NCBI GenBank assembly: GCA_030144725.1
Contig: JASKMD010000012.1
Span: forward strand, 6,681,095-6,745,094
Direction: 5' to 3'
DNA length: 64,000 nucleotides
DNA from: Haematococcus lacustris
Lineage: Eukaryota > Chlorophyta > Chlorophyceae > Chlamydomonadales > Haematococcaceae
The notes beneath the pieces were generated by a model. The model had not been told where the DNA came from and did no database searches. It saw only the letters and a list, made by a program, of their open reading frames with translations. The translations under genes were made by a program, and so were the position numbers. Every line of letters starts with the position of its first letter. The stretch's first letter is position 1. Below are positions 16,018-54,667 of this stretch, piece after piece.

Positions 16018-22396
<6,379 letters not shown>

Positions 22397-22896
22397 NNNN
22401 NNNNNNNNNNNNNNNNNNNNNNNNNNNNNNNNNNNNNNNNNNNNNNNNNNNNNNNNNNNNNNNNNNNNNNNNNNNNNNNNNNNNNNNNNNNNNNNNNNNN
22501 NNNNNNNNNNNNNNNNNNNNNNNNNNNNNNNNNNNNNNNNNNNNNNNNNNNNNNNNNNNNNNNNNNNNNNNNNNNNNNNNNNNNNNNNNNNNNNNNNNNN
22601 NNNNNNNNNNNNNNNNNNNNNNNNNNNNNNNNNNNNNNNNNNNNNNNNNNNNNNNNNNNNNNNNNNNNNNNNNNNNNNNNNNNNNNNNNNNNNNNNNNNN
22701 NNNNNNNNNNNNNNNNNNNNNNNNNNNNNNNNNNNNNNNNNNNNNNNNNNNNNNNNNNNNNNNNNNNNNNNNNNNNNNNNNNNNNNNNNNNNNNNNNNNN
22801 NNNNNNNNNNNNNNNNNNNNNNNNNNNNNNNNNNNNNNNNNNNNNNNNNNNNNNNNNNNNNNNNNNNNNNNNNNNNNNNNNNNNNNNNNNNNNNNN
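22397..22896. other. Assembly gap, 500 N
   Basis: Exactly 500 N, the usual placeholder for a gap of unknown size. It separates the histidine kinase from the 3' end of the LINE. Confidence 0.99.
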
Positions 22897-22915
22897 CAAA
22901 GAAGAGGCGTCCCCC

Positions 22916-23491
22916 CTACCCTCCCCCCCCTTTGGTAACCCTGAGTCTGTAGCTTGTCTTTGCAATAGAGTGGGCTGCCTCCATAGCGTGTCTAGTTAAC
23001 TTGTTGAGCAGCTTGGTAGTGTTGGCTTGTGTGATCCCGAGGGTCAAGAGGTGTTGCCGTGTGTGCGCTTCGTAGGTTATGCCCCCTATGCCTAGTAGGA
23101 TTGGTATGATAGCGACCATATGGTCTTCCTTGCGTATGGTCTCGGCTAAGTGGGTGTGTTGAGTGAGTGCCTTGTTCAATTGGTCCTTCCACCGTGAGTC
23201 CGAGCAGTATTTGATTTCTATGATACAGACCCGCTTGGTGTCTTTGCCGTCCTTGCTTGCCTTCTTATGAGGGAGCACCATGCACTCGTAGGAATTAGCA
23301 GCCAGGCGCCCATCAGTAGCATGTAATGAGAGCATTGCAACCAAAAAAAAAACAGGCCAAAAAAGTGAAAGGGCATAGCAATGAACACACTGAACATAGC
23401 ACTGAACACACTGAACATAGCACTGAACACACTGAACAATACCACCCAGCCTCAGCCTTTGACTTTTTCGACATGGTTTCTTTCGGGTCAT
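22916..23491 (-). CDS. LINE C-terminus: end of restriction-like endonuclease
   Basis: The true LINE frame begins at about 23282, after the inserted element. It reads MVLPHKKASKDGKDTKR and then VCIIEIKYCSD, which supplies the E-x-K part of a PD-(D/E)xK nuclease core. It is followed by an alpha/beta tail (VAIIPILLGIGGITYEAH) and ends TKGGGG-stop. The part above 23282 is inserted sequence. The matching PD residues (RPDI) sit at the end of the 23502-31019 frame. Confidence 0.75.
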   Translation of the reverse strand: MTRKKPCRKSQRLRLGGIVQCVQCYVQCVQCYVQCVHCYALSLFWPVFFLVAMLSLHATDGRLAANSYECMVLPHKKASKDGKDTKRVCIIEIKYCSDSRWKDQLNKALTQHTHLAETIRKEDHMVAIIPILLGIGGITYEAHTRQHLLTLGITQANTTKLLNKLTRHAMEAAHSIAKTSYRLRVTKGGGG

Positions 23492-23581
23492 GTTTTTTAC
23501 ATTACAAGCTACAAATGAGCCAAGTTTCAGCCCAAACGGCCAAAGTCGGTCTAGGGGCCTGGCTGCTAATTCCTACGAGTG
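23283..23581. mobile_element. 299-bp TIR insertion in the LINE endonuclease
   Basis: Bounded by perfect 25-bp inverted repeats (23283-23307 and 23557-23581). The interior holds an A-rich stretch and three copies of a 21-bp unit (GAACACACTGAACATAGCACT). Removing it with one copy of a flanking TG/CA dinucleotide rejoins RPDIL to MVLPHKK in frame. It is a non-autonomous insertion of unknown family; the short duplication is inferred. Confidence 0.75.
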
Positions 23582-26500
23582 TGAGGATATCCGGCCTGGT
23601 GGTGTGTTTAGTATCTTCTGGTTTCAGTCCGAGTGTTTGGAGTGTTGTGTGTAGCGTGTCGCTCGGGAGGTCCAGGCTTTCCTTTGCGCCCTTCTCCCAG
23701 CTGCCGGTGTCCGCAAAGCTGATGTACCCGCCTAGGGTTCCCTTGCTTATAGCTTTAGTGATGAGGCGGCCCGCCCCGTTGTGCCTTTCCTGCACCATCG
23801 GTAGTGTCTCGCTGCAGCCCGAGAGGAGGTGAGTGGCACTATCCGCTTCCCCGCAGAGTGGGCATCGGTCATCCGTCGCCCGTTTCCAGCGCATAGCTAG
23901 TTTTTGGTTGTATAGCCCCCCGGTGCGGTAGAGTAGGGCAGTGCGTTGCGCGTGGGTGGAGATGTTCGTGTCGACCATCACTCTTTCGCCCGCTCCTGTT
24001 GCTGCGACCTTCGTAATTTCTTGGGACATTTGGTAGTAGATGCTGTCCTGGTTTGCAAGGCCAAGCTTGTGTTTGCGGTGTATGTGTGCTCGCACGCTTT
24101 GGCGGCAATCCGGCAATGGGGCGGGGGATTCGCCGTCGGTTGCGTTGCTGAGCCAGTTCTTCGTCTCTTTCCGTGTGGTTGGGCTGTAGGCCGGGGTGTT
24201 GGCGAGCTCTGGGTGTAGCGCCGCGTGCTTGGCGAGGACATCGGCGCCTTCGTTGCCGATGATGCCCGAGTGGGCCCTGACTTTGAGGAATTGGATTGTT
24301 ACGGGGCTGTCGATGATAAGGGTAGCGATGGCTGTCAGGATGTCGTTGTGTCTGTGGGTGATGAGCGACATCGGGTTAGCGAGGGCTCTGCGGATCTGGT
24401 AGAGGGAGCAAAGGCTATCGGTGGCGATGCGTTTGGCCCCTGCTTTGAGTGCCGCGTGTATCGCTGTGAGTTCTGCCTTGTTGATGGTGTTGCTTTCTGG
24501 GTCGTTCAGGGCGGCTGTGATGAGGACGTTGTTCTCCGGGATATAGACCCCCGCCCCGACGCTCGCCGGGGCTGCCCCCGAGGTCTTAATGCAGCTGCCG
24601 TCCGTGTACGCGATCGTGGCCCATTCGGTGATGGCCATCCGTGGCTGCGTCGTGGAATGGTGCGTGAGTTGTTCGTGGCTGCGTTGGTGCCCCGAGGTGG
24701 GGAGGTCCCTGTCCAGCGGCAAGCGCATATGTTGTTTGTGACCGCTAGGGGGTGTGGCTGGCTGGCTTTGATTCGTTGGTCTGTTGCGGATTGGGTGTGT
24801 GTCTCGTTGAGGGTGGAGGGCAGTGGCAGTGCTAGCCAGCCAACCTTGGGGGTTGCCTTTGGTGACGAGTTGTTGTCCTGCTGCATTCCAAATGACGTAG
24901 ATGTGGAGTTTGGCGTGCTTGCCTGGCTTGGGGCATCTGGTCTTGGTGGGGGGTATGCTAGCCAGGTGCTGGCAGTACTCAGGGTAGCGCCGCAGGGTGT
25001 CAATGTGTTTAGGGTAGGAGATGCCCTTTTTCCCAGGGATCAGCATGATGGTTGCCATGGCCTCCTCTTGAGTAGCTGAATGTATAGCATGGTTGACGCA
25101 TTTTAGTGCCACTGCATCATCTGCCGGTACGTTCCATGTGGATAAGCCAGTGTGGCGTACCAGTAGGCAGTTGTGGTGTGCCCCAAAGGCCGTGTCGTTG
25201 GTGTCAGGGCTCCAATAGGTGGTGGTTTCTGGTCTAACTGTGAGTGGATCAGCCCATCTTTGCACGGTGCTTGGAAAGCTTCGTGTGGTGTGTAGGGTGT
25301 TAAGGGCTTTGTCTTGTGCCCCTCTCATGGGGTGGTGGCTGCTCTGTGCGTCCTGTCTCCTTAGTAGGGCCACTACCTCTGTGGCCAGGTTGCGTGTGTG
25401 TGGTGTGTGCTGTAACCAAGCGTGTAGATGTTGGTGTTGGTCTTTTGTCAGGAGGCCAACTGTGCGACCCGACTCGTCGTGGACCGTTACGTGTTGCACT
25501 AAGTCGTGCCGTGGCATAATGGGCTCCCCCGTGCTGAGGCTCATCGCGGGGGCGGTCATGTGAGGGTGAAGTTGGAGGAAGGTTTCGCAGCTGCCCGTCC
25601 CGACGATGTCCGTCTGCGGGTTGATGGGGTAGGTGTGAAAGGTGGCCTTCGAGTGCAGGTTGGTGCACCGGGGTAGCCAGGTGTGCGGGTCCGGTAGTCC
25701 CTGTCGGGTGTGGGCCGGCAGGTGCGCGTCGGGTCTCGCATGTCTGGCCTCTTGTATCTGCCTGTTTTCCTCGTCGTAGTCGTTGCGCTTTGCCATGTAG
25801 TCCAGGTGTGCCGTGATGAGCGGCGCCGGTTCGAGAGTGGGGTGCCAGTGTACTCGTATGAGGTCCGAGTGCGCTGACTGGCGCATGGTTGTCTTGAAGT
25901 CATTGCTGCCGAACTTGCATATAGGGCACAGCCAGTATCCTGGTTCCTTGTGTCCTGACAGGTGGGCTTCCTCTAGGCAGGCTGGGTGGTAGGCCCTCTT
26001 GCAGTTGTGGCACGTTGGGCTGTCTCCTCTTGGTAGCCAGCACAGCTCACAAGTGCATACGTCCTTAGCCTCTTCCCTGCTGATGGTCTCTATGTGTGTG
26101 GGTGTATAGCCTTCTTCTGCACATAGTGGTAATGCCCATCTATCTATGACTGTGGGCTTCCAATGCACCTTGTAGTAGTTTTCCTTGTTGATGCCGTCCC
26201 ATTGCCAGCCATCTATGCTGGTTATGGCCTCTTGGTGGCCGTACATGGCCCCTAGTATGCAGCCTAGGTTCTTGGGTTTACATCGGCAGGCTTTATCCAC
26301 CTTCCAGCTGGAGAGTCCTGGGAGGTCAAGGCCTACTATGCGCACTATATCCTGCGGGATAGTTTGGGTCTGCCTGCCCTCATTGTTCCGTTTCGTGCCC
26401 GCCTTGGGTGGCGTGGGCTTCGTTGGGGCCGATTGTGTTGCTCGTTGCTCTCGTTTCAGCAGTCGTGAGCTCGTCCTAGTGGCATCATGGGCTGCGGGTG

Positions 26501-29500
26501 CCGCTGCGGCCCGGTCCGCCGTTGCTGGTTGCGTTGCGTGCATGGCCGCATACGCTTTCATATCCATATAGCGAGTTCTGGTGTCTGGCACTGCGGGTGT
26601 GGGCGCAAGTTCCGTGAGGCCCGCGGCCCATGTAGTGATTTTGCGTTGGTCGGGCGGGAGGTCGAGTGATGTGTTGCGGCTGTCTCGGATGGCACGCGTG
26701 GCGGTCGCGTCTGGGCATGAGGGTTGGGCCGCCATGGCCGCAAGTTTGTTGAGGGCGATGATGTGCTTCTGCTTGACCTTTTTTCCGTACTTCGATGTGA
26801 GCATGCTACCGGTGATAATGTGTGTGTTGTCCTTGCAGCTGAGTTCAGAAGCGTGCTGGATGCCTAGGCTTTTGAGGCAGGTGATGCTGGCGCTGACGAC
26901 ATCGTGTGCTTGAGAGCTGCTGGCCTGTGTGATGAGGCGGCCGAGTGTTTGGCATTCCTCATGATAGAGAGGTAGCCCCTCTTCCGTGGCCGATAGCCCG
27001 GATATATAGGCATAGACTAGCTGCCGTGCCCTAAGGGTGTGATGAAGGAGGGTGAGCATGCGGTGTCCTTGTGTGCTAGCCTGGGTATTGAGCCATGTGA
27101 TTTGTTTGTGCAGCATGCTCCTCGAGATGTGGGCGTGTGCCACATCTGTGGACTGGAGGCTGTGTGTGAGGGCTGTCGTGTTGCGGGCGTGATATTCTTG
27201 GGCAGTGGAGCTAATGCCTATGCCTAGTTTGTCAGCGTCTTCTCTGATGATGGCATTGGGCGTTCCCAGGGGGAGTCTGAGTTTGAGCTTCACGCATTGA
27301 TTGATGGACCTGTCGTACAGCTCAAGGTCCCCTGGGGTGCAGGGCACGGCGCAGAAGCTGTAGGCTAGGCTGGGTATGATGGCCGTGCGGATGATGTGTA
27401 TGGCCTGCCTAGCGCTAGCAAAGGAGCGTCTGAGTCTCTCGAGTTTTTGGCGGAGCTGGGTGATCATAGCGGTGTGTTGTGGTTTCCAGTCCAGCGTCAT
27501 GGTGATGAGCACACCCAAGTAGGTGAAAGGTGAGGTCGGGCGGTGGTAGGTGACGGGTTTCCCTTGTAGGCTGACGGTTTGGAGTTGTTGGCGGGCCCGC
27601 TTGTCCGCTTCGGCCGCGTTGCTGCACATGCCAGTTTCGACCGAGTGGTGAAGCGCCGCTGTAGCGAGGGTTTTACTGTGTGAGATGATGAGGTGACCCC
27701 AGTCCGAGAAGGCTGAGAGTTTGTCCGCTTGGCATCGGAGGTTGCGAAGGGTGTTGCAGAGTATGGCTATGTCGTCAGCATAGTCGATGCTGCTGACGGT
27801 GGCGCGTTCCCCGCTGTCGGGCGTTGCTGATTTGAATTTATAGCCCCTCGCGCCCACTTGCAGCCATCGCAGGAGGGGTTCAATGTAAATGAGGAATAGG
27901 AAGGGCGAGAGAGAGTCGCCTTGTATGGTGCCCCGGTTGACGGGTACCGGGTCAGTATGGCCGTACGGGGTTTTAAAGCGCGTTGTAGCGCCCGTGTATA
28001 GGTCCTTTACAGCGTCAGTCGCGTCCGTGGGGAAGCCTAGGTCATGCATGATCCAGAGTAGTTTGTCTTGGCACGTGGTGTTGAACGCACTGGTGAAGTC
28101 GACCAGGAGTGCGTAGATATCTGCCTTGGCCAGTTTAGCATCCTCAAGGGCCATGACAAGCATCTGCAGCTGTTGTGTGGTGTTCCTGTGGGAGCGGAAC
28201 CCAGCCTGGTTCTTGCTGAGCATCCCATTAGCTTCAGCATACTCAGCCAGCGTCTTGGTAATGAGGCTGGTCCACAGCTTGTAAACGGTGTTGGCTAGGC
28301 CCACAGGTCTGTAGGAGTTGAGGTCCGTTTCTTGCCCCTTGTCCTTGTAGAGGAGGCATGTGTCACTAGTTTTCCATGCTGTGGGTGTGCAGCCTGTTGC
28401 CCACATGATGATGAAGAGCTGGTGGATGGTTTCCCGCATCTCCCATGGCAGCATCTTGATGATCTCGTTCTCCACCCCGTCTGGTCCCGGGGCCTTGCCT
28501 CCTGACAGCCTGCTGATGCATTCCTGGAAGCCTGCCTTGTCCATGATGGCTGTGTGCAGCCAGTGTATGTTTTGGCATGCGTGTAATGCGAAGGCGTCGT
28601 CGGCTTTGGCGCGAGCCCACGGGTAGTTTCGTGTCTGTGTGTTAGTGTAGTGGCCAGTCTTGGGGGTCGGGGCCGCCAGCTTCTGCCCATATGCGGCAGT
28701 GATTATCCGGTTGAGGTCGGCAGGGGCTGTGCATATGGTTTTGGTGTCAGGGTCAGCTAGCGCCTGTAGGCCTTTGTGGTCGGTGCGGGACGGGCGCAGG
28801 ATACGTTTGTTAGCCTTCTTGGGCTGGGTGCTGATCAGTTGTTGCATTCTGACGCGAGCTTGTGCGATGGCGAGTGCGGAGTCATCGTCGTCTAGTTGGT
28901 GGATTTGGTCGCGGTACGTATTGGTCAGTTGGGCGAGCGCGGCCTGCACGTGATTTTCGGTTGGGTCTTCACCCTGTCGCGCTTGCACCGCGTCCCTGAT
29001 CTCTTCGTTTATCGCATCTGTCCCTAGAATGAGTTCGTCGATTGTCGGATGCACGTTGGTTTGCTTAAAGAGGGAGTTAGCCTTCCGGCTGAGGTCTCTA
29101 GCGGTCTTAAGCTTTCTGCCCAGTGCCAGTCTAATCCTGCACATGGTCCTGCGTTGGTAGTGCTGGCCTCCCCTTGTGAGGGTCTTAGTGTTGCATGTCT
29201 TTATAGCTGCCGTCCTGCAGGTTTGTAGGAGGTTTGTGAGCATGGTGGCTGCGGTGTCTACGGCTTCCCTGGCCGGGCGTCCTGCCACTGATGTCAGACG
29301 CTGTGGTTGTTGAGGGTTGGTCTTGCCAAGTGTAGCCAGGTGGTGGGTAGCCTCTGTGTATATGGGGGCTAAGAAGGCTGTCAGTTCTGCATGCAATTGT
29401 GGGACGCCTGAGCTGGGTTGTTGCACTGCCAGGCGGTAGGCTTCCCTGTCCTTGTTGGTAATGGGGGTGGTGAGGATGGTGTGGCTGTGCTTCGGTGGTT

Positions 29501-31019
29501 TGTGTGGGGCTGCCAGGTCTATGCCCAGGCGGGCTGTATTCAATGTGGCGGTGAGTGGCCTGTGGTCGCTCAGATAGACGTTGGTATCGACGTGCGTGCG
29601 GTGCTCAGGGCCGTGTCTTGCGTCGCGTGTTAGAATAGCGTCGATGCGGCTGTTGCAGTGCGGTTGCTGGTAGGTCCAGGCCCGGTCGCCGGGGTCAGCT
29701 TCCTTCAGGTGCATTTCTGCGGCGAACCCCCTCATCATGCTGTCTTGTGTGTATTCGGTGTGCTCGGAACGATCCTCTGTTTTCATCGTGGCGTTGATAT
29801 CTCCCGCCAGGATGAGTGAGCCGGGCAGGTGCCCAGTGGCTGTTCGTATGTGTTCTTGCATTTTTCCTCGCATTAACAGCGCGTCCCCGTTGTTTCCCGA
29901 CGGCCAATACGTGGCGATGATGGTAAGCTGTTCGCACTGGTGTTGGTTGAGGGTCAGGATGACGCATCGTGCGTTCACCTCAGCGTCGATGCTCGGTGGA
30001 AGCATAGTGGTTTTCATTTGGATGGCTAAGTGGTGTTTGATGCCTATTAGTACGTCACTGTGGCCTCTGTGTCGGTGTGTCGTATAGTCTGGCATGACTC
30101 TCCTCAGCCAGCCAGAGCCTGGATTGTTGCTCTTGGGCTGGGTCATGGTTTCAGTTAGGATCAGGATGTCCGGGCTGTGTTGATGCACAAGGTTCAGGAC
30201 GTCGTTCCTGGACCTATGGAGGCTTCTGACGTTCAGGGTCGTTAGTGTGATATGCTGTCGATTGTGTGTTGGTTGTGGCTGCCGGGTTGGCAAGGTGCTG
30301 TGTTGTGGGTGTGGTCCTGGGTGTTCAGGTAGGTTATCGGTGGGGGGTGGCGGTATTGTGGGGTTGGCGGCGGGGGGTGGGGTGGGGGCTGTGTTTAGGT
30401 ATCTGTACATCAGGGTCTGCGTGTGCGGGTCCTTGGTTTGCGCTCTTGGCTTGGTCCGTCTTTTGTCTACGATGGTGCCCGATGTCGTGGGCCGTTTACT
30501 GCTTGACCGGTCTTGTAGAGTGGGAAGAGTGACTGTGGGGGCGACCCGGCGCAGTCGCGGCCGGGCCTGCTTGTCTGTCGGGTGGGTGTCTGCTGTGGCT
30601 GTTAGTATGCGCTTGTAACTCGCTGGTTGTGCAGTGGGTAGCGGCCGGTCTGTTCGGGGGGTGTGCGCGGGTTGTGTGCCCAGGTCTTGGGTAGTAAGGT
30701 CGATGTGGGTGGTACGTAGATGTTGTTCCAGCTGCTCCGTTGTGGCGCGCCTTGTAGGGTCAGCTAGCCAGCATAGTGGGTGGATGAGGTTGGTATCAGC
30801 CGCGTCGCCCTTTTTAATTTGAACGAGTGTACCCTTCAGCTGAAGCCAGTCTTCCGGGGTGTCCAATCGGCATGGGCGGCCTTGTTCCGAGTCCAACCAG
30901 TGCCATGCGTTGTTAATGTGGCGGATGGTCAGGGCCTCCCAACCCCCTTGAAAAGGGGGTGTGTCCGTTTCACGCGGTTTATTTCTCGTACAGTTTGCGG
31001 ATTGATCAACGAAGCACAT
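23502..31019 (-). CDS. LINE polyprotein main part: APE-RT-PHD-RNase H-CCHC-RLE
   Basis: LINE sequence proper runs from about residue 33 (30922) onward; the first residues are inserted DNA. APE endonuclease at about 255-500 (TLNVRSLHRSRNDVL, LILTET, AGDIN, SRIDAI, LSDHRP). RT at about 840-1150, with KAPGPDGVENEIIK, LVDFTSAFN, IQGDSLSPFLF and catalytic YADD near 27773-27784. PHD finger (C4HC3) at about 1655-1705: CELC, CHNC, HPAC, CPIC. A domain at about 1930-2060 (FGAHHN...TWNVPAD) is unassigned. RNase H at about 2135-2270 (YTDGSC, NKAELTAI, ATDSLCSL, AHSGIIGNEGAD). A CPLC...THLLSGC zinc motif at about 2390 leads into RHN and RPDI of a restriction-like endonuclease. The stop at 23502 lies inside the 299-bp insertion's downstream reading and is not the native end. 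Catalytic motifs are intact. Confidence 0.92.
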   Translation of the reverse strand: MCFVDQSANCTRNKPRETDTPPFQGGWEALTIRHINNAWHWLDSEQGRPCRLDTPEDWLQLKGTLVQIKKGDAADTNLIHPLCWLADPTRRATTEQLEQHLRTTHIDLTTQDLGTQPAHTPRTDRPLPTAQPASYKRILTATADTHPTDKQARPRLRRVAPTVTLPTLQDRSSSKRPTTSGTIVDKRRTKPRAQTKDPHTQTLMYRYLNTAPTPPPAANPTIPPPPTDNLPEHPGPHPQHSTLPTRQPQPTHNRQHITLTTLNVRSLHRSRNDVLNLVHQHSPDILILTETMTQPKSNNPGSGWLRRVMPDYTTHRHRGHSDVLIGIKHHLAIQMKTTMLPPSIDAEVNARCVILTLNQHQCEQLTIIATYWPSGNNGDALLMRGKMQEHIRTATGHLPGSLILAGDINATMKTEDRSEHTEYTQDSMMRGFAAEMHLKEADPGDRAWTYQQPHCNSRIDAILTRDARHGPEHRTHVDTNVYLSDHRPLTATLNTARLGIDLAAPHKPPKHSHTILTTPITNKDREAYRLAVQQPSSGVPQLHAELTAFLAPIYTEATHHLATLGKTNPQQPQRLTSVAGRPAREAVDTAATMLTNLLQTCRTAAIKTCNTKTLTRGGQHYQRRTMCRIRLALGRKLKTARDLSRKANSLFKQTNVHPTIDELILGTDAINEEIRDAVQARQGEDPTENHVQAALAQLTNTYRDQIHQLDDDDSALAIAQARVRMQQLISTQPKKANKRILRPSRTDHKGLQALADPDTKTICTAPADLNRIITAAYGQKLAAPTPKTGHYTNTQTRNYPWARAKADDAFALHACQNIHWLHTAIMDKAGFQECISRLSGGKAPGPDGVENEIIKMLPWEMRETIHQLFIIMWATGCTPTAWKTSDTCLLYKDKGQETDLNSYRPVGLANTVYKLWTSLITKTLAEYAEANGMLSKNQAGFRSHRNTTQQLQMLVMALEDAKLAKADIYALLVDFTSAFNTTCQDKLLWIMHDLGFPTDATDAVKDLYTGATTRFKTPYGHTDPVPVNRGTIQGDSLSPFLFLIYIEPLLRWLQVGARGYKFKSATPDSGERATVSSIDYADDIAILCNTLRNLRCQADKLSAFSDWGHLIISHSKTLATAALHHSVETGMCSNAAEADKRARQQLQTVSLQGKPVTYHRPTSPFTYLGVLITMTLDWKPQHTAMITQLRQKLERLRRSFASARQAIHIIRTAIIPSLAYSFCAVPCTPGDLELYDRSINQCVKLKLRLPLGTPNAIIREDADKLGIGISSTAQEYHARNTTALTHSLQSTDVAHAHISRSMLHKQITWLNTQASTQGHRMLTLLHHTLRARQLVYAYISGLSATEEGLPLYHEECQTLGRLITQASSSQAHDVVSASITCLKSLGIQHASELSCKDNTHIITGSMLTSKYGKKVKQKHIIALNKLAAMAAQPSCPDATATRAIRDSRNTSLDLPPDQRKITTWAAGLTELAPTPAVPDTRTRYMDMKAYAAMHATQPATADRAAAAPAAHDATRTSSRLLKREQRATQSAPTKPTPPKAGTKRNNEGRQTQTIPQDIVRIVGLDLPGLSSWKVDKACRCKPKNLGCILGAMYGHQEAITSIDGWQWDGINKENYYKVHWKPTVIDRWALPLCAEEGYTPTHIETISREEAKDVCTCELCWLPRGDSPTCHNCKRAYHPACLEEAHLSGHKEPGYWLCPICKFGSNDFKTTMRQSAHSDLIRVHWHPTLEPAPLITAHLDYMAKRNDYDEENRQIQEARHARPDAHLPAHTRQGLPDPHTWLPRCTNLHSKATFHTYPINPQTDIVGTGSCETFLQLHPHMTAPAMSLSTGEPIMPRHDLVQHVTVHDESGRTVGLLTKDQHQHLHAWLQHTPHTRNLATEVVALLRRQDAQSSHHPMRGAQDKALNTLHTTRSFPSTVQRWADPLTVRPETTTYWSPDTNDTAFGAHHNCLLVRHTGLSTWNVPADDAVALKCVNHAIHSATQEEAMATIMLIPGKKGISYPKHIDTLRRYPEYCQHLASIPPTKTRCPKPGKHAKLHIYVIWNAAGQQLVTKGNPQGWLASTATALHPQRDTHPIRNRPTNQSQPATPPSGHKQHMRLPLDRDLPTSGHQRSHEQLTHHSTTQPRMAITEWATIAYTDGSCIKTSGAAPASVGAGVYIPENNVLITAALNDPESNTINKAELTAIHAALKAGAKRIATDSLCSLYQIRRALANPMSLITHRHNDILTAIATLIIDSPVTIQFLKVRAHSGIIGNEGADVLAKHAALHPELANTPAYSPTTRKETKNWLSNATDGESPAPLPDCRQSVRAHIHRKHKLGLANQDSIYYQMSQEITKVAATGAGERVMVDTNISTHAQRTALLYRTGGLYNQKLAMRWKRATDDRCPLCGEADSATHLLSGCSETLPMVQERHNGAGRLITKAISKGTLGGYISFADTGSWEKGAKESLDLPSDTLHTTLQTLGLKPEDTKHTTRPDILTLVGISSQAPRPTLAVWAETWLICSL

Positions 31020-31716
31020 CAGTATGTAGAGGGCTCGCTTGGCTACACGCTACGGCTGTCCTGAGCGTCCATGACTATGTATATGATGCACTGTTTAGGC
31101 GTGAACCCGGCCTATATTTTGTGGGCAGATATCACCATGCACGCCAATGGTGCTTGGGCTCCTGCAATTGACAATCCATGGCTCACTGAGCTTTTTGAGT
31201 AATATTGCTTCTTCTGACACAGCTGGGCATATGAGTATAGTAGTCTTTGAAAGTGCGGTCAGCACAAAAATATGACATCTCTCTGAGTTTTGGCTGGATT
31301 TGCTGCTTAGGCTGCAAATCCTACCTGCTCAGCGGAGCCGCAGCTGAAGCTTGGATTAGCCATTTACGTATGCTGTGGTGTACTCGGAAACTCCTGCATC
31401 ATCAGATGTTCGTCGGGTAACCTGTGCTGGCGCAGGATAGGTGGCAACTGCTGCGTGCACCTCACCTCGCGGGCTGGCAGCAGCGCCTATGCGTAGAGCA
31501 CCAAGAGCACGCCTGCACTGCGCGATGTCTTGAGGGTGGCCGGCGGATCCCAACCACCCTGCCGACCACAATCGAAGCAGCTGCCGGTTGCTGCCAAAAC
31601 TAGAGTCCGCGTTTATGCCATGCCGCGCGGGGCTAAAGCCATAGGCCTGCTCCCGGAGCAATCGGTTGCATGTGACGGTCTTACATGCCAAAACATCAGA
31701 GTTGGGAGGCCCTGAC
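30928..31716. mobile_element. 789-bp GTCAGG-family TIR element in the LINE
   Basis: Perfect 16-bp TIRs, GTCAGGGCCTCCCAAC at 30928-30943 and its complement at 31701-31716. Flanking 5-bp duplication GGATG at 30923-30927 and 31717-31721. Removing the element and one GGATG restores the LINE frame across TTIR/HINNAWHW. No coding capacity that I trust. It shares TIR form and duplication length with the elements at 36524-38594 and 50970-56275. Confidence 0.9.
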
Positions 31717-34700
31717 GGATGGTGGTAGCGTGATTGTGAGTAATGAGGACGGCGGCTGTGTTAGTGTAGCTGTCCGTCTTGCCCATGAGCGTGGTGAGGA
31801 GCTCTGGTGTGATGTTGTTGTTGGTGGTGGTTGTGGCGGTAGGGCATAGGTGGAGGTCCTTGTGGTGGTGGTATAGGTAGTGGTTTATGGTGGAGATGGT
31901 GAAGTTGCCAGATTCCTCGTAGATGTGTGGGAGGCTGCTACGTAGTGGTATTATCCTGTGCTCCTGCCTTGCCTGGTTGGCTAGGCCTTGGATGTGTGTG
32001 TCGAGTGATTTGCAGTGGGTGATGACGTCTTCGGGCCAGATCATGGGTTTCCCTATGGCCATGTTGATGGCGTGCACAAGACAACATTGTTTGTATTGCC
32101 TTTCCATGTAGCATTGGGACGGGTCCTGGTTGTCTTCCTTGTGGCTGATAATGTGACTAATACCCTGTCGGGTGGTGGCCATTGTTTGGGCTGGTGTGGC
32201 GGCCGGGTCGGGTGCAATGACGAACACCTCGTGGAAGTGGTTCGTGTAAGAATGCGACAGCTCACAGATGGCTATAGCTGATTTACTGGAGCTGTCGGAA
32301 TCTAGGAGCTTCCACTGCCCACCCAACTTCCTGAGCGCCATGCTGTGGCCGTTCGTTTTGCACAAGAAGTTGAGTGTGGCATACTCTATCGCTATGGTGT
32401 CGAGGTTGTCGTCGTTCCAGTCGTCTGTGTTGCGTAGGTGAGCGACCCTCGTAAGAGTGAGGCCGTATTTGGTCCTAAGGTATAGGTGAATGACCTCGTC
32501 GCTGAAGGCGCCCCCGTCCCCTCGTGCGGTATGCCACGCCTTTTTGTCGCCTTCGTCTTGTAGGGTTGTATCCCAGGTTGTCCAAAAGTTATGCAGGTCC
32601 TCAGGCTTCACCCATTCCTTTCCAGCTGCATTGTTGAGGGAGTGGGCCTGGCAGTTGCGATTCACCTGCGCTTCGAAAAACAAGGGGTTAGGGTTGACTT
32701 CTGGGTGATGCTCCTCATTGTGGGATGGGCCTGGGTTCGCTTCAATATCACCTCCTGCTAGCAACAACCAGCCTATATAGAGCAAGTAGATAGCACTGTA
32801 GCAGGGGGACATGACGCCAAGGCAATGGGCTAGCTTGGTTGATAGGGCTGGGATGCTCATGCGGGTAGGCAGATCAGGCATGCGGTTGATGCGCAGAATG
32901 TATATTGTGTACCGTTGCAAAGTCGTGTTGTATTGGTGAACTAGGATGCTGGTGCTTTCTGGGTTGGATGTATAGTGGCCATGCGACTGCCAGCTAGTGA
33001 GGGCTGTTGACAGGTGCATCAAGGCAGTGTGACGTTCCACTGAGCCATCAAGGTAGAGGTACAGGGTGTTGGCAGATCCAACAGAGACCGCTCTCCATCT
33101 CCTGATTTTCTTAAGGTGTCGTCGGAGGCAAGCTCTAGATTGAAAAGGGGTAATAGCAGGGGGTGGGGGGGTGGGGGGGTAGCCCCTAATTAAAGCGATG
33201 CTGGCGATAGCAATGGCGATGTGTGCCATCCAGCTGAGTGTCTCGTGTCCGTAGTCATAGTTGGGCATGGTGCTAGTGTCTATAGTGTCGGCTGTCTGGG
33301 ATTGTCGCGGGGTGCCTCCCCTAACTCGTTGGTGTAGTTGTCCATCCTCTGCCTTGTTGTTGTAGGCATGAGGGTACCTGATGCGGGGCAGCAGGCCAGC
33401 ATGGGCAGCATGCGTGGCTGCTCCTGGCAGCGTAGTGAGCTGAGTACACCGCTGCACACTCTCTGACTTGTTGTTGTAGGCATGGCGGTACCTGCTGCGG
33501 GGCAGAGCACCAGCATGGGCAGCATGCATGGCTGCTCCTGGCAGCGTCATGGGCTGAGTACACCGCTGCACACTCTCTGACTTGTTGTAGTAGGCATGAG
33601 GGTACCTGATGCGGGGCGGCAGGCCAGCATGGGCAGCATGCATGGCTGCTCCTGGCAGCGTCATGGGCTGAGTACACCGTTGCACACTCTCTGACCTGTA
33701 ATTGTAGGCATGAGGGTGCCTGATGCGGGGCAGCAGGCCAGCATGGGCAGCATGCGTGGCTGCTCCTGGCAGCGTGGTGGGCTGAACGCACCGCTGCACA
33801 CTCTCAGACTTGTTGTTGTAGGCATGGCGGTACCTGCTGCGGGGCAGGAGGCCAGCATGGGCAGCATGCATGGCTGCTCCTGGCAGCGTCATGGGCTCAA
33901 CCCACCCCTGCGCACTTTCTGACTTGTTGTTGTAGGCATGAGGGTACCTGTTGCGGGGCAGCAGGCCAGCATGGGTGGCGGCAATAACATGGGCTGGCAG
34001 GTGGTGGTGGGGCGGAGCGCCATGTACCATGTCGACCTGCATGTCAACATGGGCAGCTTGCATTTGTGAAGTGGCCGGCTGATCATGCCAGGCTGCAGCA
34101 GGGCGGTCTGGTAGGTGGTGGTGAGGCTGAGCGCCATGGGTTGTGCATTGGGGTATAGCCCCTAGGGATGTGTGTTGGGGTATAGCCCCTAGGGATGTGT
34201 GTTGGGGTATAGCCCCTAGGGATGTGTGTTGAGGTATAGCCCCTAGGTATGTGTGTTGGGGTATAGCCCCTAGGGATGTGTGTTGGGGTATAGCCCCTAG
34301 GGATGTGTGTTGGGGTATAGCCCCTAGGGAGTAGGTCGCTGGTGAGTAGGGGGGTGCGTTCCCATCTCTCTTGCCTCGGGGTTGTTCCCTCAGCTCTCCA
34401 ACCTGACCTCGGGGTTTTTCCCTTGGCATTGTGTGTTGCCTAGGGGGTTTTTCCCCCGGCGTGTAGTGTTTGTGGCAGTCAAGGCAGGCCAGGACTCCTG
34501 TCTGTCTGTCTTTAACACCTGTCTGTCCAAGCGCCGTCTCGGCCATTCCTGCGCTGTGTCTAGCGCTATATCTTGCCGTCTCGCCGCCACCCTGTTGGAG
34601 CCTTGTGTTGTCGCAGCAATAGTGCAGCTGTAACAGCAATATGAAGACGAGTCTGGCTGCCTTGTTGGGCTTACCAGGCATTCGGCTAACGCGATGTCCC

Positions 34701-34747
34701 AGTGCGTGGATGGGGCCCACGGTTCGAATGGTATCGTCGTTCCACAT
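31613..34747 (-). CDS. LINE polyprotein N-terminal part: repeats, 2A motif, two Josephin-like proteases
   Basis: ATG at 34747; native LINE sequence to 31717. Residues about 145-205 are eight nonapeptide repeats (GAIPQHTSL type). About 260-480 are six 38-residue repeats (AHAGLLPR...HAYNNKSESVQ). A hydrophobic segment (AIYLLYIGWLLLAGG) leads into DIEANPGP, residues 667-674, a canonical 2A motif. Protease domain 1 has C699 (NRNCQAHSLNN), H801 (GHSMALRKLGGQW) and D816 (LLDS). The H-to-D/N spacing of 15 and the motif RKLG-x-QW match the Josephin deubiquitinase family. Domain 2 has C889 (QCCLVHAINMAIG); its His and Asp lie across the insertion (NHATTIRHINNAWHWLD after excision, again spaced by 15). 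With 2A skipping, residues 1-673 would be released from the enzymatic part. The last ~35 codons are inserted DNA. Confidence 0.85.
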   Translation of the reverse strand: MWNDDTIRTVGPIHALGHRVSRMPGKPNKAARLVFILLLQLHYCCDNTRLQQGGGETARYSARHSAGMAETALGQTGVKDRQTGVLACLDCHKHYTPGEKPPRQHTMPREKPRGQVGELREQPRGKRDGNAPPYSPATYSLGAIPQHTSLGAIPQHTSLGAIPQHTYLGAIPQHTSLGAIPQHTSLGAIPQHTSLGAIPQCTTHGAQPHHHLPDRPAAAWHDQPATSQMQAAHVDMQVDMVHGAPPHHHLPAHVIAATHAGLLPRNRYPHAYNNKSESAQGWVEPMTLPGAAMHAAHAGLLPRSRYRHAYNNKSESVQRCVQPTTLPGAATHAAHAGLLPRIRHPHAYNYRSESVQRCTQPMTLPGAAMHAAHAGLPPRIRYPHAYYNKSESVQRCTQPMTLPGAAMHAAHAGALPRSRYRHAYNNKSESVQRCTQLTTLPGAATHAAHAGLLPRIRYPHAYNNKAEDGQLHQRVRGGTPRQSQTADTIDTSTMPNYDYGHETLSWMAHIAIAIASIALIRGYPPTPPPPAITPFQSRACLRRHLKKIRRWRAVSVGSANTLYLYLDGSVERHTALMHLSTALTSWQSHGHYTSNPESTSILVHQYNTTLQRYTIYILRINRMPDLPTRMSIPALSTKLAHCLGVMSPCYSAIYLLYIGWLLLAGGDIEANPGPSHNEEHHPEVNPNPLFFEAQVNRNCQAHSLNNAAGKEWVKPEDLHNFWTTWDTTLQDEGDKKAWHTARGDGGAFSDEVIHLYLRTKYGLTLTRVAHLRNTDDWNDDNLDTIAIEYATLNFLCKTNGHSMALRKLGGQWKLLDSDSSSKSAIAICELSHSYTNHFHEVFVIAPDPAATPAQTMATTRQGISHIISHKEDNQDPSQCYMERQYKQCCLVHAINMAIGKPMIWPEDVITHCKSLDTHIQGLANQARQEHRIIPLRSSLPHIYEESGNFTISTINHYLYHHHKDLHLCPTATTTTNNNITPELLTTLMGKTDSYTNTAAVLITHNHATTIRQGLPTLMFWHVRPSHATDCSGSRPMALAPRGMA
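32726..32749 (-). other. 2A ribosome-skipping motif DIEANPGP
   Basis: Matches the D-(V/I)-E-x-N-P-G-P consensus exactly and follows a hydrophobic Leu-rich stretch (GWLLLAGG), as in active 2A sequences. The skip would fall between Gly673 and Pro674, directly ahead of the first protease domain. Confidence 0.88.
33350..34000. repeat. 114-bp in-frame tandem repeat, six copies
   Basis: Units start at 114-bp steps (33379, 33493, 33607, 33721, 33835, 33949 at an internal landmark). Each encodes a 38-residue unit of the LINE N-terminal region. Confidence 0.9.
34145..34332. repeat. 27-bp hairpin-forming in-frame repeat
   Basis: About seven copies of a 27-bp unit that contains GGGGTATAGCCCC, able to form a 4-bp stem, followed by TAGGGATGTGTGTT. 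Each codes for nine residues (GAIPQHTSL) on the minus strand. Confidence 0.9.
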
Positions 34748-34750
34748 ATG

Positions 34751-40928: not shown

Positions 40929-41015
40929 GGTTATGGGCCCACGCCCAGACGTGTACAAACGACGCCAGTGAGTTGCCGGTTAGGGGTCGTGCAATTAGCT
41001 CTAAGCTGATTGGCG

Positions 41016-43746
41016 ATGGCAGCTCCCAGCTTCAGCTCAGGATGTCACGTACCTGATCTCGATGATACCACCTATCGTGACTGGAGTATGCGCGTTGAAG
41101 GATTCCTCGTTGAGAACTCCCTTTGGGAGATCGTCGACTCCGGAGTCACCGCTCTCCCCTCTGCGCCTGGGTCGTCAGCTAGCGCAGACGCGCGCGCTGC
41201 CTATACAGCAGCTCAGATCACTAATCGTGCAGAGCTCGCAGCTGATGCCAAAGCCAAGGCGCTAATCAAGCGCTATACCTCCAAACCCTACCTGCAGCTC
41301 GTCCATGATTCAGCCTCTGCCAAAGATGCCTGGACCAGTCTCGAAAGCGAGTTCACTCAGGTTTCCGTGGCCAGGCAGACACAGTTGCAGCAGCGACTCA
41401 GCCTACTGCGTATGCAGCCTGGTGAAACAGTCGCCAATTTCTTCAGCCGCATTTACCAGCTCAAGTCCGATCTCGAGGCTTGCAACTGCAGCATCTCTGA
41501 GTCCAACATCGTGCTTACTGTCCTCGCCAATCTCACCTCAGACTACAAACCCTCAGCTGTGCAGCTGCGGTATGAGCAGACCGGTCCTACGGGGCTAACA
41601 CTCAGCCGAGTGAAGCGCGTCATGCAGTTCCGCGAGGCAGACCTGCTGCTGGAACAGCAGCAGGAGCATGCCTCATCTCCCTCCTCTCTCTTTGCCTTCT
41701 CCTCCTCATCCTCACGGGGACTGGGTAGTTCAGGCGGGGGGGGAGGTAGGGGCAGGGGCAGAAGCCTGGGGCCCAGGCAGATCTCTCCGACCAGATCCAG
41801 TGAACATGGCAGTAGCAGCAGCAGGCAGAGTCAGCATGCTGATGCTCTGTGCCACTACTGCAATAAGACAGGGCATATCATGGCTGAATGCTTTACCTTT
41901 GACAAGCACATGCGACAGCGTCTAGCAGGGCAGCGAATCAGCTCTGTCAGAAGTCCCAGCCCAGGTCAGAGGAACAGCCCAGCCAGGGGTGCCAGCCCAG
42001 CCAGGGGTGCCAGCCCAGCCAGGAGCAGCAGCCCACGCAGAACTAGCGTCCCAGCTAGGGGTCGTGCTCAGACCCCAGGCAGGTCAGCCGCAGTTGATTC
42101 TACTGACACCTATGACCTGTTCACAGCCAACGCAGATGATGATTATCTTATGCCCCTGCAGACATACAACACTGATCTCTATGAGCCGTTCTACATTGAC
42201 TCTGGAGCATCGCAGCACATGATCACAGACAGGGAACACTTCAGCAGCTATACAGCCTTCAGGCCTGATGAGCACAAGGCAGTCAGACTAGCAGCTGATG
42301 GACATGTCATCTATGCTGTAGGTCAAGGCACTGTTTGGCTGAACACTCAGCGTGGCCCATGGCAGCTCAGCAAGGCACTGCATGTCCCTGCCAGCAGACA
42401 CAGCTTCATTTCTGTCTCAGCTGCCACAGATGATGGGGCCAGCTTCACTTTTACAGATAACCAGTGCATCATTCGAGACACTAGACTCAAAGTCAAAGCT
42501 CGCAAAATCAGAAGCAGCTACATTCTAGCTGCAGTACCTCTGCCAGCTGATCCTTATGACATGCAGCAGCCCCATTTGCACAGCTACTCAGCAGCTACTC
42601 CCAGCAGCAGCAGCTCAACTGCAGCTACTCAGACTGATGCTTCAGTGACTGGTGGTGCGTCAATTGCAGCAGTGCCCGAAGCTGCTCAACCAGCTCCGAC
42701 GGGACTCAGCGCCACCTCTGCTCAGGTGTGGCATCAGCGCTTATGTCATGCTTCTTACTCCTCCTTAGCTCTCATGCAGGAACGGGGCATGGTGACAGGG
42801 GTCGATGTTACAGCCAGTCAGTTTAGAGCAGCAGCTAAGTGTCCTGGACCTGTTTGCATAGGCTGCATCAAAGGCAAGCATCATAGAAATGTAGCTTTTG
42901 CCCAGCCCTCTTCAAATGCAGCCCCTGTCACTGCTCCTCTAGGACTAGTGCACATGGATGTGTGTGGTCCTATCAGCCCGCCAGCCAGGGATGGCAGCCT
43001 TTACTTAGCCACCTTTCTTGATGACTTCACCAGGCTATCTGTAGTCATGCCAATGCGCAGCAAAGCCCAAGTGCCCAGCATAGTCAAACAGGTCATTGAG
43101 CAGCTTGAGACTCAGTCGGGTCAGCGCTGCAAGGCTATCAGGACAGACAATGGCACTGAGTATGTCAACCAACAGATGCAGCAATACTGTAGCGACAAGG
43201 GCATCATTCATCAGCACTCAGCGCCCTACAGCCCAGAGCAAAATGGAGCAGCTGAGAGATTGAATAGGACCATCATGGAGAAGACCAGAAGCATTCTGCA
43301 TGCAGGTCGTATGGGTCTACATCATTGGGCAGATGCAGCAAAGCTGTCCAACTATGTCAGATGTGTCTTACCTGTCACAGATCAGCCACTCACCCCGTGG
43401 GAGTCCTTCTTTGGTGTTAAGCCAGATCTGTCAGGACTCAGGGTGTTTGGCTCAGCTGTCTGGGTTCATGTGCCAGCCCAGAAACGCAGCAAACTAGAGG
43501 CTAAGGCAGTCTGGGGGGTCTTCATAGGCTACCAGCTTGGATCCAAGTCGTACAGAGTTCTAGTAGATGGCAAGGAGTATCAGAGCAAGGATGTAGTCTT
43601 TGATGAGCAGCTAGTTCAGCACATGCCGACAGGACCAGCGACACAGCTGCAGTATCCTGGTGCTCCCAAAGCCCCCACTCTCCCAGTCCACCTAGGTCTC
43701 CTTGTCCCTCCCGTCCCTCCTGGGGGGGACACAAGTCAGCAGCAGC

Positions 43747-43797
<51 letters not shown>

Positions 43798-45761
43798 CCA
43801 GCAGTAGTGACTCCAGGGACAGTGGGAGCTCCTCAGACAATGTCAGCAGCAGTGACAGTGATGACGGCAACAGCAGAGCCCCAGTCAGACAGCACATACT
43901 CAGCCTGCCCTCAGGCATTGGCAGAAACAGAATCCCACATGCTGATCCCAGCCAGAGCCAGGCTGCAGTAGGTGCCCCAGCTGAGAGCCCTCAGAATAGG
44001 TCAGCAGGCAGACCAGCTCGTGCACCTTTGCTCAGAGCTCAGGTTGCTCCTCCTGCTCAAATGCCCGATGATCAGCTGCAAGGTGCTCCACTGCCTGCTG
44101 CTGTTGTGGCACCTGGTGCTCCTATGCCACGACGCAACCCACACAGGGAAAGGAGGCCTCCTGCTAAGATTAGGCAGCCAGAGCTCTATGCCATGAATGT
44201 CACTGACTCACAAGCAAATGACAATCCAACTGTCGCTGAAGCACTGTCTGGTCCCCAAGCGGACATGTGGCTCCAAGCCATGCATGTTGAACTTGCATCT
44301 CTGCATGAGAATCAGACATGGTGCCTGGTTGACAAGCCTGCTGGTGCACGCGTTCTGCCCACCAAATGGGTACTAAAGATTAAACGTGATGCTGCAGGGG
44401 CCATTGAGAAATTCAAGGCTCGGCTAGTGGCTAAAGGCTACATGCAAGTGTCAGGTGTGGATGTGGGCGATGTCTATGCCCCTGTTAGTAAGCACACCAC
44501 CCTGCGCACTCTGCTAGCCAAAGCAGCTGCAGAAGACATGGAAGTTCATCAGGTAGACGTAGACGCAGCTTTCCTGAATGGACAGCTTGAGCCCAATGAG
44601 ATCATTTATGTACAGCAGCCTGAAGGGTTTGTTGAGGGCAGCCGCAACACTGTGTGCAAACTGCAGAAGGCGCTCTATGGGCTTAGGCAGGCTCCACGAG
44701 CTTGGCATGCTAGGTTGAAGCAGGTGCTAGAGGGCATGGGGTTTAGGGCTTCTGAGTCTGACCCAGCGCTTTTCACCATGCAGCGCCAGGCAGGCATGGT
44801 CTACCTGCTTGTCTATGTTGATGACTGCCTCATCTGCACTGAGAAGGGTGACACTGACAGCCTTGACTATGTGAAGCAACAACTGTCTGCAGTGTTCGGC
44901 ATCAAGAACCTGGGTGACACCAAGTGGTTTCTGGGCATGAAGGTAACTAGAGATAGGGCTATGGGCACCTTGAAGCTGGATCAGCAGCAGTATGTGCATG
45001 AGCTGCTGAACACGTATGGTATGATAGCAGCCCACAGCAAGTCGGTGCCCATGGCGCCAGCAGTTAAGCTAGAAAGGGAAGGTGTTGCTTTGGACACTTC
45101 AGAGCACAGCTATAGTGGTTTGGTAGGCAGCCTGCTGTACTTATCCTGCTGCACAAGGCCAGACATCACATATGCAGTGGGAGCTCTTGCACGTTACATG
45201 TCCTCACCCACACAGCAGCACTGGACTGCAGCCCGAGCCATTCTTAGCTACCTAAAGGGCACAGCTGATCAGGGGCTTGTGTTTGGAAGGACTGCTGAGT
45301 TGCAGGGCTACTGCGATGCTGATTATGCTGGGGACAAAGACACAGCCCGCAGCACCACAGGCTATGTGTTTACCATGAATGGTGCAGCAATCAGCTGGTC
45401 CAGCCGGCTACAGCCTACCGTGGCCATGTCAACTGCTGAGGCAGAATACATGGCAGCATCCAGTGCTGTGAAGGAAGGACTGTGGCTCCGCAAGCTTATG
45501 CAGGATCTGCAGCTGCCAGGTGACTGCACAAACATCCTGTGTGACAATCAGGCAGCCCTGCAGCTGTTGCATAACCCCATCGCCTCTGCTCGCGCCAAGC
45601 ACATCAATGTGCACCACCATTTTGCTAGGGAAAGGGTAGCCAGGGGGGAAGTGTCCTTTGACTACTGCAGCACAGCCAGCATGGTAGCCGATATCATGAC
45701 CAAGCCGTTGGCTCTGGTTAAGTTTAGCCAAGGAAAGCATGGGTGTGGGGTGTCTGATTGA
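41016..45761 (+). CDS. copia gag-pol polyprotein
   Basis: ATG at 41016, 1,581 residues in one frame without breaks. Gag (copia UBN2-type, DDTTYRDWSMRVEGFL) is followed by a zinc knuckle CHYCNKTGHIMAEC. The protease has DSGASQHM. Integrase shows HQRLCHAS with CIGC, then the DDE core: HMDVCGP, IRTDNGTEY, and PYSPEQNGAAERLNRT. A poly-Q stretch (CAG array, 43735-43796) lies in the integrase-RT linker. RT carries VDVDAAFLNG and LLVYVDDCLIC. RNase H has CDADYAGD, STAEAEYMA and CDNQAA. All catalytic residues expected for the family are present, so the element could be active. The domain order (integrase before RT) defines copia. Expression would start in the 5' LTR. Confidence 0.97.
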
Positions 45762-53145: not shown

Positions 53146-54621
53146 TCAGAAATATGCAAGGTTGCTGCGATGCTTGACCCCTTCGTGAGCAGTACTGTTG
53201 GCCTGGCCACTCTGCAATGCCTCACAAGGTGTGTATGCCATTGCTATGTTACCTTCCTCGACATGTTGGGTCCGATCCCTCCCGCCCGCCCCCCGCTTGC
53301 GTGTCGAGCTCGTGTTCAGCTCCGCTGTGGCCCCCTGCTGCTCAGATGGAGGGGTGAGCATGCCAGGGGCGGCACCAGCACCAGCTGCCAGCTGCTGCCA
53401 AGGGGGGGCAGCAGGAGGGGTGGGCAGCCCAGGAGCGGCACCAGCAGCAGCTGCCAGCTGCTGCCAGGGGGGGGCAGCAGGAGGGGTGGGCAGCCCAGGA
53501 GCGGCACCAGCAGCAGCTGCCAGCTGCTGCCAGGGGGGGGCAGCAGGAGGGGTGGGCAGCCCAGGAGCGGCACCAGCAGCAGCTGCCAGCTGCTGCCAGG
53601 GGGGGGCAGCAGGAGGGGTGGGCAGCCCAGGAGCGGCACCAGCAGCAGCTGCCAGCTGCTGCCAGGGGGGGGCAGCAGGAGGGGTGGGCAGCCCAGGAGC
53701 GGCACCAGCAGCAGCTGCCAGCTGCTGCCAGGGGGGGGCAGCAGGAGGGGTGGGCAGCCCAGCACCAGCACCAGCACCAGCACCAGGACCTGCACCTGCC
53801 CCCTGCTCATCCCCATGCAAGCCGGCCACTGTGTTGCGAATGTGGGCCATGACAAGACCCTTTAGCTTGGGCTTCAACCACCCTTTCATGACCTCCTGAT
53901 GGTGGAAGCGGAGGTAAGCTTGCAGCTCCCTAACTGATAGCTTCTGAGCCTCCTCAAGAGTGGTGTGGCTGTAATCGCGCCCATCGTAGGTCAGAGCATA
54001 AGCTGCTTGCAGTCTATGCTGCCCCTCATGGTCCCCCACATCAACCACCACCTGCCCCACCCTATGAGTTGCAGCTGCTGCTTTCATCTCCGCCTTTGCT
54101 GTCCGTCGTTCCCTAGCTGCTGCTGCCTCTTCACGCCGCACTTCCTTGCGTAGCTCCGGCAGCCGCTGTGCAAAGTCTAGCACGTCCACGCCGTCAACGG
54201 CATCGCTGTGGGTACGCATGGACATGAGCTCAAGCAAAGCTGGCAGCTCCATGAACATGCCCGTCCCATGCTTGAGTAGCTGCAGCAGGGACTCCACAGG
54301 GGCATTGAATATTGGGCAGGCAAGGTAATACACCTCCAGATGCGCTTGCAGTTGTAGCCCAGCCCAGCCCAGCCCAGCCCAGCCCAGCCCAGCCCAGCCC
54401 AGCCCAGCCCAGCCCAGCCCAGCCCAGCCCAGCCCAGCCCAGCCCAGCCCAGCCCAGCCCAGCCCAGCCCAGCCCAGCCCAGCCCAGCCCAGCCCAGCCC
54501 AGCCCAGCCCAGCCCAGCCCAGCCCAGCCCAGCCCAACCCAACCCAACCCAACCCAACCCAGCCCTTACCTAGGGTTCGTTGCCGTATGTATTTGCAGAC
54601 CACACGCTGCTGCCGGCCCAT
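53146..54621 (-). CDS. Transposon protein with SAP-like segment, satellite-filled intron
   Basis: ATG at 54621 begins [17 protein letters not shown]. The exon ends at 54570 (CTAG/gtaagg). The acceptor tgcaag at 54345 resumes in phase as [20 protein letters not shown]. The intron is almost wholly a TGGGC pentamer array. Then comes an acidic/basic coiled stretch ([27 protein letters not shown]). Next is [18 protein letters not shown]...[12 protein letters not shown], which has the L-x-V-x-E-L ... K-x-x-L pattern of SAP DNA-binding motifs. Six 22-residue repeats ([20 protein letters not shown]) and a basic tail follow. It could be one gene with the coiled-coil frame just upstream. No catalytic motif is seen. 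The SAP assignment is inference. Confidence 0.5.
53400..53770. repeat. 66-bp in-frame repeat, six copies
   Basis: Landmark TGGGCAGCCC at 53421, 53487, 53553, 53619, 53685 and 53751, so exact 66-bp spacing. Encodes the 22-residue Pro/Ala repeat of the preceding protein. Confidence 0.95.
54357..54560. repeat. AGCCC/TGGGC pentanucleotide array forming an intron
   Basis: About 36 AGCCC units and then five or so AACCC units. They lie between the donor at 54569 and the acceptor at 54345 and make up nearly the entire 225-bp intron. Confidence 0.9.
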
Positions 54622-54667
54622 AGTTGTGTGCTCAAGTGGGCTCAGGCTCAAGTGGGCTCAAGTGGGC

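Follow-up and report, generated by a model that had tools for sequence, protein, structure and literature searches.

Introduction

Dualen/RandI elements are long interspersed nuclear elements (LINEs) for which the 2005 Dualen paper is said to list a cysteine protease. In the partial accounts that are cited here for them and for other systems, they code for both an APE endonuclease and a restriction-like endonuclease (RLE) (PMC3636483), have RNase H (PMC4640811), and occur as families in Chlamydomonas and its relatives (PMC8226300) and also in cryptophytes (PMC12747079). 2A-like sequences are known in LINE proteins, sea-urchin 2A-like sequences also serve as signal sequences (PMC4981915), and NeSL/Utopia LINEs possess an N-terminal Ulp1-like protease (PMC4640811). 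Here we analysed a 64,000-nucleotide stretch of Haematococcus lacustris (assembly GCA_030144725.1, contig JASKMD010000012.1, positions 6,681,095 to 6,745,094; hereafter the window), in which a long minus-strand polyprotein very probably belongs to a Dualen/RandI-type LINE of H. lacustris or a very near relative, with two DNA insertions interrupting this copy.

The upstream APE, the C-terminal RLE (split by the second insertion), RNase H and a cysteine protease are all present in the window; the element thus resembles Dualen/RandI of Chlamydomonas in joining APE and RLE to one reverse transcriptase (RT), in its RNase H, and reportedly in the cysteine protease as well. The assignment, already made in an original prediction from the letters alone, was retained because APE and RLE accompany one RT, which is the feature described for Dualen (PMC3636483). 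Compared with the partial descriptions of Dualen/RandI, the window adds a 2A motif before tandem Josephin domains, and a PHD finger and a PCIF1-like domain between RT and RNase H. The 2A-like sequence is shared with L1Tc of Trypanosoma and with APE-type LINEs of multicellular organisms (PMC4981915), whereas the window has it ahead of two deubiquitinase-type domains, and the element carries both APE and RLE. An N-terminal protease of a ubiquitin-like-deconjugating family on an RLE element is likewise found in NeSL/Utopia (PMC4640811), but here Josephin stands in place of Ulp1, and APE, PHD, PCIF1-like domain and RNase H are additional. The PCIF1-like domain is similar to the cap-specific adenosine methyltransferase PCIF1/CAPAM in fold and sequence profile; unlike that enzyme, it lacks the NPPF motif and is embedded in a LINE polyprotein. 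The most surprising part of the element is this degenerate PCIF1 fold, which is shared across the surveyed group.

Results

A single frame interrupted by two insertions

22916-34747, minus strand: whole LINE coding region, with ATG at 34747 and stop at 22916-22918, split by two insertions
30929-31715, no strand assigned: insertion 1, 787 bp, inverted repeats TCAGGGCCTCCCAA, duplication CGGATGG
23283-23581, no strand assigned: insertion 2, 299 bp, 28-bp terminal inverted repeats

Along the minus strand, the frame encodes in order the N-domain, 2A, Josephin, Josephin, APE, RT, PHD, PCIF1-like domain, RNase H and RLE, and all parts claimed in the original prediction (2A, two Josephin domains, two endonucleases, RT, PHD and RNase H) were found. 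The bulk of the frame lies in two open pieces, 31613-34747 (1044 aa) and 23502-31019 (2505 aa). Without the insertions it amounts to 10734 bp, or 3578 codons, the figure that had been predicted, as calculated from lengths only (3032 + 7347 + 364 bp, one copy of each duplication subtracted; the sequence was not joined). Insertion 1, with terminal inverted repeats of at least 14 bp and a 7-bp duplication, is one that we take to be hAT-like in appearance; the duplication at insertion 2 is 2 bp at most. Both sites are uninterrupted in H. lacustris proteins (P0003 and P0023 at the first, P0037 and P0039 at the second), which are gene models, so the uninterrupted reading could reflect splicing by the predictor. 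A 500-N gap (22397-22896) adjoins the stop and conceals the 3' flank of the LINE.

The closest protein matches are to H. lacustris gene models; identity reaches 99% across the RT, and P0023 is 98% identical over 2455 residues. The H. lacustris set comprised all protein ids below P0089 together with P0097 and P0126 (later also P0143 and P0149), including the window's own P0001 and P0002 as well as P0007 and P0014, and 80 relatives outside H. lacustris were drawn from the best 120 of 189 and the best 120 of 155 matches. P0007 and P0014 are filed under the bacterium Bosea sp.; they are pieces of LINEs of the Haematococcus element's family, carry 2A and share 53% and 42% identity with the query; apparently, algal DNA contaminated a bacterial assembly. 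When viral_contigs and genome_contigs were each scanned once, no DNA copies were found elsewhere, and a literature search found, at listing level, no treatment of H. lacustris LINEs.

Two endonucleases accompany one RT

29523-30263, minus strand: APE endonuclease (Pfam 2.4e-11)
27042-28379, minus strand: RT with YADD (RVT_1 2.6e-25)
24207-24635, minus strand: RNase H (Pfam 1.5e-15)
23582-23867, minus strand: first part of RLE, with CCHC knuckle, RHN and RPD (RPD at 23586-23600)
22919-23282, minus strand: second part of RLE, with EIKYCSD (E-x-K) and the C-terminus

At the C-terminus, the RLE displays CPLC-x7-H-x4-C, RHN and RPD, followed by E-x-K past insertion 2, at about 23218. The endonuclease motifs are retained in nearly all rows counted, and the RLE profile matched R2 protein structures modestly (8.6e-4 and 1.5e-3). 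In a PDB search, the window RT was closer to R2 (6.1e-25) than to LINE-1 ORF2 (1.1e-9). An RT tree of 60 rows, built before the second list of relatives, placed the window RT in one family with RTs of other elements having APE and RLE. Nine H. lacustris-set RTs formed one fully supported group within that wider family (the tenth chosen, P0082, was excluded for short coverage), and Josephin was found on either side of the tree's midpoint. Among the 80 relatives, PHD and RLE are common and 2A is sporadic.

A degenerate PCIF1 fold and a PHD finger lie between RT and RNase H

24873-25448, minus strand: PCIF1-like domain (cap m6Am methyltransferase fold), without NPPF motif
25908-26072, minus strand: PHD finger, C4HC3 ligands intact

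The PCIF1-like domain, overlooked in the original prediction, was present in 71/71 relatives spanning the stretch, and its match to the PCIF1 fold and sequence profile was obtained via relatives and a structure model. The catalytic NPPF motif was absent from all 74 rows outside H. lacustris, of which 72 have letters at that place, and NPP[FYW] was likewise absent. At this position the H. lacustris set reads TWN[VI]PA, 20 of the 72 rows read NPEY, and P0170 reads HPPF. Literature searches revealed, at listing level, no report of PCIF1 in a retrotransposon.

The zinc ligands of the PHD finger are retained in nearly all rows counted. With an iterated profile, 50 of the 71 relatives having both RT and RNase H showed the finger between the two, and 53/55 H. 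lacustris-set proteins possessed it; the Pfam cut-off was passed by four of nine homologues scanned (P0095, P0100, P0102 and P0105), at up to 35.4 bits. As judged from these profiles, PHD is common in the group, and in the remaining relatives it would be lost or too diverged. The predicted location of the finger is confirmed and its ligands are intact; with 50/71 relatives having PHD there, it is not a peculiarity of this element.

A 2A motif precedes tandem Josephin domains

34091-34357, minus strand: 27-nt tandem repeats (9-aa repeats) of the N-part
33223-34089, minus strand: 114-nt tandem repeats (38-aa repeats) of the N-part
32762-33229, minus strand: fast-evolving N-domain ahead of 2A, by hidden Markov model (HMM)
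32726-32767, minus strand: 2A (StopGo) motif LLLAGGDIEANPGP, residues 661-674 of the first open piece, predicted break Gly673/Pro674
32219-32701, minus strand: Josephin domain 1, Cys/His/Asp present
31716-32131, minus strand: first part of Josephin domain 2, catalytic Cys and His
30810-30928, minus strand: second part of Josephin domain 2, Trp/Asp motif WHWLDS (position calculated from residue numbers)

The N-domain HMM matched 37 H. lacustris-set proteins and none of 51 relatives in a first survey. Ahead of the first Josephin domain, the window motif contains GDIEANPGP, which fits D[VI]ExNPGP. The original prediction had placed 2A before tandem protease domains and had named copies lacking the 2A and protease block as evidence against itself; in the H. 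lacustris set, GD[VI]ExNPGP is retained at 37 of 38 junctions between the N-domain and the first Josephin, and the sole junction without it, in P0012, is apparently a gene-model skip. Among 19 representatives less than 85% alike, mean pairwise identity was 0.85 for the 2A core (partly inflated, because the representatives were picked for having the motif; the 37/38 is unaffected), whereas the N-domain reached 0.17, the next 20 residues 0.14 and the remainder of Josephin 1 0.47. WLLLA, which was outside the selection criterion, directly precedes 2A in 16/19 of them.

Outside H. lacustris, 33 relatives have a long N-part, with APE starting at residue 500 or beyond. Just four of these (P0105, P0112, P0132 and P0142) carry 2A upstream of APE; P0145 has an imperfect 2A, and an earlier count gave one in 12 Josephin-bearing relatives with at least 100 residues upstream. 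P0105, P0112 and P0132 lie in separate branches of the RT tree, from which P0142 is absent. On these sequence counts, 2A is near fixation within H. lacustris and recurrent yet optional across the group. P0105 and P0112 each display two consecutive 2A motifs, spaced by 66 and 82 residues, that precede APE and the protease or lie between protease parts.

The N-part had also been predicted to be membrane-associated. The case for this consists of two segments of marginal hydrophobicity (mean Kyte-Doolittle 1.64 and 1.58), and the one directly before 2A exceeds 1.4 in three of five other copies but not in P0043 and P0063.

Josephin was matched in the window by Pfam at 3.4e-12, in two stretches, and catalytic Cys, His and Asp are retained in both domains in nearly all rows counted. 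Insertion 1 splits the second domain, leaving Cys and His before it and the Trp/Asp part after it. A second Josephin without His was considered and rejected as an artefact of the insertion, the His being located before it. The Josephin profile matched ataxin-3 (2.4e-7) and Josephin-2 (6.7e-7), and the modelled pair of the H. lacustris copy P0036 (pLDDT 75.8, pTM 0.51) matched the ataxin-3 Josephin at 3.4e-6. Of the long-N-part relatives, 28/33 have a Josephin match. In P0112 and P0139, which fall in different branches of the RT tree, Ulp1 was matched but Josephin was not. A literature search for Josephin with retrotransposons gave matches apparently through the name Josephine.

Other features of the window

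41010-45761, plus strand: 1583-aa open frame with Ty1/copia domains (gag, integrase, RVT_2 3.9e-61), a copia retrotransposon whose main frame is uninterrupted
20710-21639, minus strand: weak histidine-kinase ATPase match (HATPase_c 1.6e-4, under the cut-off), perhaps a host-gene exon beside the LINE
53146-54651, minus strand: open frame with a Lamprin match (9.9e-11), probably a low-complexity resemblance

Discussion

Our comparison establishes the order of the parts and their conservation, and the functions proposed below are read from fold and motif. Translation of a single RNA would start at the ATG. Either all ribosomes or a fraction of them would skip the Gly-Pro bond at 2A, leading to a separate N-protein, consisting of the repeats, the fast-evolving N-domain and perhaps a hydrophobic tail, and an enzyme protein of about 2900 residues starting with Pro-Josephin. 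The Josephin pair may strip ubiquitin off host proteins or off the element's own ribonucleoprotein (RNP), thereby shielding the RNP, while PHD may keep it on chromatin. The PCIF1-like module, without its methyl-transfer motif, might bind RNA, perhaps at the capped 5' end, or form a bridge between RT and RNase H. APE and/or RLE would then nick the target strands, RT would prime on the nick and copy, and RNase H would clear the template.

Papain-fold proteases with activity on ubiquitin also cleave viral polyproteins, and the Josephin pair could likewise process the polyprotein to which it belongs, with 2A just the first cut. That the product after 2A still has about 2900 residues would suit this idea, as would a ubiquitin-tail-like site (LxGG or RGG) in 63/63 APE-RT linkers of the H. 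lacustris set compared with 14.6 expected from shuffles (TRGG with LSGG or LAGG in the printed examples), although the 63/63 may stem from shared descent. In relatives, by contrast, the sites did not rise above shuffles in the APE-RT linker (9/37 against 10.3) or the RT-PHD linker (7/43 against 11.2), nor in the next three (0/41 against 5.2, 2/44 against 3.2 and 1/43 against 5.7), and the Josephin-APE linker gave 3/16 against 1.9; linkers longer than 900 aa were excluded from this analysis. Cleavage at ubiquitin-tail-like sites was rejected on this lack of enrichment in relatives. The occurrence of Ulp1 in place of Josephin in P0112 and P0139 also points to deconjugation of ubiquitin-like proteins over a single cleavage site, and we regard self-processing as unlikely. 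Since Josephin and Ulp1 folds both act on ubiquitin or its relatives, their interchange favours action on host conjugates.

A further alternative is that 2A is a relic, or part of a hydrophobic signal or tail anchor, with the products not separated. The marginal hydrophobic stretch ending directly before 2A in the window and in three of five other copies would be consistent with this, as would the double role of the sea-urchin sequences in the partial account noted above (PMC4981915). Yet the D[VI]ExNPGP core is kept, with WLLLA in most representatives, while the flanks drift, and 2A recurs upstream of APE in four relatives, three of them in different branches of the RT tree, all of which makes a relic or anchor quite improbable. 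Little more likely is an active PCIF1-like domain whose changed motif still allows methylation of the cap adenosine or of nucleic acid: the structure model retains the fold, and NPEY, near NPPF, and the HPPF of P0170 might pass for variants, but NPP[FYW] occurs in 0/72 rows outside H. lacustris and the H. lacustris set has TWN[VI]PA, so we consider activity unlikely. The two insertions and the gap, together with several H. lacustris gene models that are fused with other retroelements, might raise the suspicion of a chimera arising from assembly or from insertion of one element into another. Since H. lacustris proteins share this domain order with relatives from other sources, a chimera is extremely improbable.

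Several observations weigh against our preferred account, a single Dualen/RandI-type polyprotein with a separating 2A, deubiquitinase-type domains, a PHD finger and a PCIF1 fold. The window PHD is under the Pfam cut-off (0.023; 15.1 bits against 24), and its sequence alone matches two of the 80 relatives at 1e-5 and five at 1e-3, so the wider PHD counts depend on the iterated profile. The window PCIF1-like stretch alone, in a single-sequence PDB search, returned no PCIF1; the link depends on relatives and the structure model, the profile also matched a Protein A construct at 2e-5, which we took as spurious, and the Pfam PCIF1 cut-off was passed in three of nine homologues scanned, with nothing in either of the two H. 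lacustris ones. The RLE match to R2 is modest, the best RLE stretch alone reaching 0.016. The H. lacustris gene models, some fused with other elements, are not independent loci. To these may be added the scarcity of 2A among long-N-part relatives and the inflated identity of its core.

A more specific history, which we put forward as a speculation and think rather unlikely as a whole, is that Dualen-type LINEs early on acquired a host PCIF1 between RT and RNase H, and that the former enzyme came to read their own RNA at its capped 5' end, serving the choice of full-length transcripts or the finish of the cDNA at the cap, with PHD reading chromatin and the deubiquitinase pair guarding the complex. 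If this were true, one LINE protein would read both chromatin and the cap and would erase ubiquitin, and 2A would set its ratio to the N-protein. The cap-methyltransferase fold, a degenerate relative of a host cap-modifying enzyme, occurs in every surveyed relative spanning the stretch. With a LINE group whose polyprotein joins this fold to domains of ubiquitin-cutting type and a finger of histone-reader type, single-domain mutations may be used to test how LINEs choose their own full-length RNA, escape host proteolysis and locate chromatin.
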